Source: Leptotrichia hongkongensis (GTDB taxonomy: Bacteria > Fusobacteriota > Fusobacteriia > Fusobacteriales > Leptotrichiaceae). From it: a stretch of DNA of 64,000 nucleotides. The stretch spans positions 2,046,001 to 2,110,000 of the forward strand of contig NZ_AP019846.1 in NCBI RefSeq assembly GCF_007990635.1. Reading direction: 5' to 3'. Shown one piece after another: positions 13,379-58,404 of the stretch (within the stretch, counting starts at the first letter, position 1; every line of letters starts with the position of its first letter). Position numbers and translations under genes: made by a program. A model generated the notes under the pieces. It saw nothing but the letters and a program-made list of their open reading frames with translations, did not search any database and was not told the origin of the DNA.

Positions 13379-13483
13379 TATACTCGAACCCATTTAAAGT
13401 TAAACTGATAGAAATTATATAATTTAGGGTTTGAGTAAAATAGTCATAATTTTTGAGTTTTGTTTTAAACTAGTTTTACTATA
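13379..13483 (+). repeat. 105-bp dispersed intergenic repeat, copy A
   Basis: One of four full copies (others at 26489, 46059 and inverted at 58300). It starts TATACTCGAACCC, which pairs with GGGTTTGAGTA at 13427-13437, and the overlapping AGTAAAATAGT at 13435-13445 pairs with ACTAGTTTTACT at 13469-13480. The result is two consecutive hairpins sharing AGTA. The outer ends (TATACT.. and ..AGTATA read inward) are also imperfect inverted repeats. No coding potential. Confidence 0.9.
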
Positions 13484-26488: not shown

Positions 26489-26593
26489 TGTACTCGAACC
26501 TATTTAAAATTGAACTGATAGAAATTATATAATTTATGGTTTGAGTAAAATAGTCATAATTTTTGAGTTCTATTTTAAACTAGTTTTACTATA
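26489..26593 (+). repeat. 105-bp dispersed intergenic repeat, copy B
   Basis: Same length and layout as copy A; the left arm TACTCGAACC pairs with GGTTTGAGTA at mid-element, and AGTAAAATAGT pairs with ACTAGTTTTACT at the end. It differs from copy A at only a handful of positions, all outside or compensated in the stems. It sits about 100 bases before the end of the first rRNA operon. Confidence 0.9.
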
Positions 26594-46058: not shown

Positions 46059-46163
46059 TATACTCAAACCTATTTTAAATTAAACTGCTAAAATTATATA
46101 AATTTATGGTTTGAGTAAAATAGTCATAGCTTTTGAGTTTGGTTTTAAATAAGTTTTACTATA
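46059..46163 (+). repeat. 105-bp dispersed intergenic repeat, copy C
   Basis: Same length and layout as copies A and B but the most diverged. In the first stem it has TACTCAAACC with GGTTTGAGTA, an exact match where A and B have one mismatch, suggesting the pairing itself is maintained. It lies between the convergent tsaD and HAD genes. Confidence 0.88.
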
Positions 46164-54973: not shown

Positions 54974-55244
54974 TTTTACTTTGTATAATTAAACTTATAC
55001 TTTCCTCCTTCTTTTATTTTAAAATCAATTTTAATTATAACATAATTTAAGATATGTTTCAATTTTTTTAAAAATTATTTTTTTTATACTAAACTTTATT
55101 TAAATAGTAAATTTATTACAAACTTTTTTAATAAAAGATATAAACCTAATATTTAAATGAAAAATAGTATTATATGTATTTTTCCTTCATTTGTATAAAA
55201 TATTTACTATTAATCTTACTTATACCAAATTTACTTAAAAATAA

Positions 55245-58299: not shown

Positions 58300-58404
58300 T
58301 ATAGTAAAACTAGTTTAAAACAGAACTCAAAAATTATGACTATTTTGCTCAAACCCTAAATTATATAATTTCTATCAGTTCAATTTTAAATGGGTTCGAG
58401 TATA
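58300..58404 (-). repeat. 105-bp dispersed intergenic repeat, copy D (inverted)
   Basis: Exact length and nearly the same sequence as copies A and B, in the opposite orientation. It lies between the convergent acid phosphatase and LtrA-like genes. Confidence 0.9.

Follow-up and report, generated by a model that had tools for sequence, protein, structure and literature searches.

A 105-bp Repeat of Leptotrichia as a Probable TA-Inserting MITE with Ends Like Those of an IS630-Family Element

Four copies of a 105-bp repeat that can be drawn as two successive hairpins lie in the 64,000-nucleotide stretch of the Leptotrichia hongkongensis chromosome analyzed here (the window). Is such a repeat a mobile element, or an RNA maintained for its fold?

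A repeat family across the genus

The preliminary description listed four copies of 105 bp in the window, and their coordinates, orientation, and length were all borne out. Copy 1 (positions 13379 to 13483, + strand, subfamily A), whose coordinates span both TA duplications, is flanked by a tRNA-Phe/Asp/Val operon (3′ side) and a − strand open reading frame (ORF). Copy 2 (26489 to 26593, + strand, subfamily A) lies 3′ of an rRNA operon and tRNA-Asn and has its left TA changed to TG; an identical insertion, with close flanks alike, was found at two more loci (L023 and L024). Copy 3 (46059 to 46163, + strand, subfamily B) and copy 4 (58300 to 58404, inverted on the − strand, subfamily A) are each flanked by convergent genes.

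In the whole genome, a 113-bp query gave at least 41 matches at E ≤ 3e-30, and the core 19-mer, with up to 3 mismatches, occurred 89 times versus 2 for its reversed control. Extraction left about 85 genuine copies in the 2.26-Mb chromosome (a 2,261,073-bp contig), with both ends recognized in 80. Lengths among these 80 were tightly clustered (105 bp, n = 48; 106 bp, n = 16; 107 bp, n = 10; 104 bp, n = 4); the 74 copies of 105 to 107 bp show a short, noncoding, multicopy repeat with defined ends, as is typical of a non-autonomous DNA transposon (MITE). At least three subfamilies could be told apart by eye, namely A (CGAACCC...GATAGAA), B (TTTTAAATTAAACTGC...ATTTATGG), and C (ACTACTAAAAATT...GCCTTTTGAG). 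At one locus in this genome (L009, at ~1428 and ~1550), two like-oriented copies of different subfamilies stand 122 bp apart.

The family was present in 13 of 13 Leptotrichia genomes examined (this one and 12 other species) and in one sister genus, g11; the remaining genera and families searched yielded nothing but isolated marginal matches. In an exact 19-mer scan of a collection of genome contigs, all matches came from Leptotrichia oral taxon 879, apart from lone matches in contigs of Richelia, Methanobrevibacter, and Chlorobi, which are presumably due to chance. With about 85 copies and a genus-wide range, the expectation of many copies genome-wide, for which a search of this genome and its relatives had been suggested, was confirmed. 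A shortened variant missing ~15 bp of the left arm occurs in several copies in the sister genus (G022; L226, L243, and L260), which suggests that the element can spread without the whole of its left inverted repeat.

Insertion at TA and target duplication

Insertion was examined through empty sites: the element was removed by script, and the joined flanks were searched for an uninterrupted occurrence. An empty site in a sister strain had been proposed as a check, and the site of copy 3 proved empty in two sister species (G011 and G006; left-side flank identity about 98% and 94%), with TA duplicated where the site is filled. Both species read TTTATTA-TA-ATAACG, and the window reads TTTATTA-TA-TACTC...ACTA-TA-ATAACG. 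Five intragenomic empty sites, all within another, longer repeat (L033, L074, L018, L011, and L017), likewise carry a single TA. TA is thus duplicated at six independent sites, and it stands on both sides of 106 of the 123 distinct copies. The repeat inserts at TA, duplicates it, and has defined ends; since the empty sites hold one TA, the element proper is ~101 bp plus the duplicated TA. Target-site duplication is a property of MITEs, and duplication of TA in particular is one of the IS630/Tc1/mariner superfamily. These defined ends and the TA duplication, together with the ~85 copies, bear out the first impression of a MITE-like, high-copy element. Two further sites were compared: for copy 2, a neighboring rRNA operon without the element has a flank that diverges before the insertion point and so offers no clean empty site, and the joined-flank search for copy 4 matched a neighboring gene only.

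The duplicated TA also bears on a possible IS200/IS605 (Y1) ancestry, in which the end hairpins would be cleavage substrates. IS200/IS605 elements have palindromic ends, which the two subterminal hairpins resemble, but they make no target duplication. The six duplicated sites, and ends that are inverted repeats matching an IS630 element, are at odds with hairpin ends joined to a fixed short target without duplication, and we rejected this derivation, which is hardly credible.

The insertion sites yielded several further observations. At L033 and L074, two insertions occupy the same TA (TTTRTAATA/AWTTCGT) in the longer repeat, suggesting a target hot spot. In G002 and G003 (L211, L212, and L220), the gap orthologous to that of copy 3 holds a MITE elsewhere, nearer the right-hand gene, which probably inserted into this gap independently. 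The longer repeat itself is ~395 bp and TA-flanked (L002:1740-2134 in this genome; ends TATACTAAACCC.ATTTAAA), with related ends at position 55085 of the window and at other loci. These ends resemble those of a second Leptotrichia IS630 group, and the ~395-bp repeat is probably another MITE family, into which the 105-bp MITE has inserted repeatedly.

Terminal inverted repeats and the candidate parent element

When both ends are read inward from the TA, the left (TACTCRAACCYATTTAAAATTRAACT) and the right (TAGTAAAACTNNTTTAAAACNRAACT) form imperfect inverted repeats of ~26 to 28 bp, matching at 20 to 22 of 28 positions (TA counted), as terminal inverted repeats of a MITE do; over the 123 copies, 79% of the 28 end-to-end pairs were standard. 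In copy 3, the left repeat (46061 to 46086, + strand, TACTCAAACCTATTTTAAATTAAACT) resembles the transposase-distal end of a Leptotrichia IS630 element, and the right repeat (46136 to 46161, reading TAGTAAAACTTATTTAAAACCAAACT inward on the − strand) also resembles the ends of that element. The preliminary description was right to compare these imperfect inverted repeats with those of a MITE, except that they extend over ~26 to 28 bp rather than a few bases or short hairpins.

It had also reported no parent transposase, a statement that no longer holds. Searching related genomes for DDE_3 transposases led to a TA-flanked, ~940-bp IS630-family insertion sequence (IS), in which an HTH_Tnp_IS630 frame is followed by a DDE_3 frame and whose transposase was classed by Pfam and NCBIfam. 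In one copy (L148), the two frames join at a run of A's, a junction suggestive of programmed frameshifting. The transposase-distal end of this IS reads TA followed by TAGTAAAACCTATTTAAAATTGAACT, and it is matched at 23 to 26 of 30 positions by the MITE left end and at 24 to 26 of 30 by the right end. As a control, 5,763 other 30-mers anchored at TATA were taken from the same DNA; only a handful reached 22 or more, several of them residual unmasked MITE copies. BLAST gave matches of 20 to 22 bp at 95%, located at the IS ends. The MITE ends thus match those of an autonomous IS630 element found in the same lineage, with the difference that the MITE left terminus is TACTC and that of the IS is TAGTA or TAGTG. 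Full-length ~940-bp copies occur in three genomes (G001, G004, and G012); in the present genome, the IS survives as three relics only, and the one DDE_3 match there is interrupted by a stop. Recognizable IS DNA was found in 8 of the 15 genomes searched (2 of the 15 are not Leptotrichia), and the MITE was found in all Leptotrichia genomes searched.

Taken together, the repeat is very probably a TA-inserting MITE with at least three subfamilies that was moved in trans by the transposase of the ~940-bp Leptotrichia IS630-family element and is now probably immobile in this genome. On this explanation, a ~101-bp non-autonomous transposon would target and duplicate TA dinucleotides, mobilized by a transposase of the IS630/Tc1/mariner superfamily encoded by an IS with related ends, and would have spread as its several subfamilies. 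From the similarity of the ends, we infer that this particular transposase was the mover. The probable origin is internal deletion of such an IS, to which the ends by themselves point, since comparison of the MITE and IS interiors gave no convincing similarity. Because the IS is reduced to relics here, current movement of the family is improbable without a transposase supplied from outside. Internally deleted IS630 derivatives of ~190 to 340 bp that keep both ends were also seen (G000:C1:1794004-1794339, G012:C1:955742-955932, and G002:C1:55403-55607) and are MITE-like intermediates.

A different transposase may instead have moved the MITE, whether that of the second IS630 group of Leptotrichia (group 2; ends TATACTAAACCCCGTTTAAAT) or yet another, in which case the likeness to the ~940-bp IS (group 1) would hold only at the level of the superfamily. 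The MITE left end starts TATACT, as group 2 ends do, and several MITE-bearing Leptotrichia genomes are without group 1 IS DNA. However, group 2 matches only 16 to 18 of 30 positions at its better end, and group 1 matches clearly better, at 23 to 26 of 30, at both MITE ends. On this weaker match, we rejected group 2 as the parent, and a mover other than group 1 seems unlikely, if still worth bearing in mind.

Hairpins, gene context, and parallels in other bacteria

What, then, of the hairpins? The two-hairpin design arises because the center of the element, GGTTTGAGTAAAATAGTC, carries inverted copies of, and is complementary to, both ends; in copy 3, the near-invariant core at this center (46108 to 46127, + strand) reads GGTTTGAGTAAAATAGTCAT and holds inverted partial copies of the two ends. 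The internal symmetry recognized at the outset is therefore real, and its paired segments were found (TACTCRAACC with GGTTTGAGTA, and AGTAAAA(TAGT) with (ACTAG)TTTTACT). Standard pairs were kept in 95.8% of cells of helix 1 and 97.7% of cells of helix 2 over the 123 copies, which might suggest a conserved structured RNA or cis-regulatory element (a terminator, 3′-end stabilizer, or riboswitch-like element) selected for both hairpins. However, pairing persists because there is hardly any sequence variation. Double changes were seen in 1 cell of helix 1 and 3 cells of helix 2, compared with 3 to 7 and 4 to 34 in controls slid by 1 to 3 columns, so compensatory substitutions did not exceed the control. 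Fold energy was unremarkable against shuffles (z = −1.2 to −1.6), the RNAalifold consensus was −1.2 kcal/mol, and Rfam gave no match at the copies. The left stem has another sequence in sister genus g11 (TACTCAAAACT with AGTTGAGTA); there, helix 1 shows CC/GG replaced by CT/AG, possibly one compensatory change, albeit alongside indels. The suggestion of selection on the fold, for which a search for compensatory changes had been proposed, thus finds no support in the slid controls or the fold energies. A single replacement of G-U by A-U, affecting one side only, accounts for the better pairing of one copy (copy C of the preliminary description).

Gene context points the same way. With genes called by a simple ORF caller (≥70 amino acids), 22 copies lay in convergent gaps, 42 in co-directional gaps, and 14 in divergent gaps, and 2 overlapped a called ORF. 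The four window copies had been described as confined to 3′ ends or to gaps between convergent genes; the co-directional and divergent placements show that this does not extend to the genome. Avoidance of genes held for most copies, the 2 overlapping ones excepted. The nearest gene end was 3′ for 42 copies versus 5′ for 36, and gene-relative orientation within co-directional gaps was evenly split (21:21), so there was neither a 3′-end preference nor an orientation bias, a pattern more in keeping with a selfish element whose insertions selection has filtered than with a regulatory RNA. Convergent gaps did hold more copies (22 of 78) than the window's intergenic share would give (binomial P = 0.0002 by bases and P = 0.006 by gap count), a point in favor of an RNA, but a Fisher test against the 49 gaps of the window showed no enrichment (P = 0.14). 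Against this stand the 14 divergent placements, the even orientation, and the absence of copy 3 from the orthologous site in two sister species. We rejected an RNA function on covariation, fold energy, and orientation, and consider it very improbable. For a MITE moved by an IS630-family transposase, the mostly intergenic distribution would follow because insertions into genes were purged.

The center nonetheless calls for comment, as its columns are among the least variable of the whole element, and this conservation exceeds what a neutral, passive MITE interior requires. It is conceivable, though we hold the idea only tentatively, that this near-invariant center, where both ends recur in inverted form, has a function within the mini-transposon. 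If so, it might be a putative internal transposase-binding site or contribute to an end-center-end hairpin architecture for efficient mobilization, needed given that an IS630-type element is here so short.

Among the open-access literature searched, we found no report of MITEs or IS630 elements in Leptotrichia. The family is real but fairly ordinary mobile DNA. Like IS of the IS630/Tc1/mariner superfamily (e.g., ISY100, PMC2170065), the repeat has terminal inverted repeats and a TA-flanked insertion; ISY100-type elements encode a DDE transposase with an HTH domain, whereas the 105-bp repeat is gene-free and would be a non-autonomous derivative. BOX and SPRITE of Streptococcus pneumoniae (PMC3049150) are likewise small, intergenic, and predicted to form hairpins, and some lie close to convergent 3′ ends; unlike the Leptotrichia MITE, BOX is modular, and SPRITE is terminator-like without demonstrated duplication. 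The cyanobacterial MITE Nezha, whose proposed movers are ISNpu3-like elements as cited in PMC3049150, appears from that citation to be another short non-autonomous element tied to a resident IS by similar ends, in a different host.

The closest parallel, likened by description rather than by membership of the same family, would be RUP of S. pneumoniae, which is 107 bp long, is present in about 110 copies, has ends like those of IS630-Spn1, and shows target duplication (PMC3049150). Both families are ~105 to 107 bp, A+T-rich, foldable, and mostly intergenic, at ~100 copies per genome, with IS630-family-like terminal inverted repeats and target duplication. They differ in phylum, in the inverted copies of both ends carried by the Leptotrichia center, and in that RUP ends match a resident IS630-family IS, whereas the full IS has decayed in the present genome. 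As far as sequence can show, the Leptotrichia MITE probably works like RUP. Its insertions extend across the genus and differ between species, and the likely parent IS is preserved both in full length and in decayed form. This makes the family useful as a source of strain markers and for studying, in a natural setting, how short IS630-type MITEs outlive their parent, in parallel to the pneumococcal RUP in another phylum.
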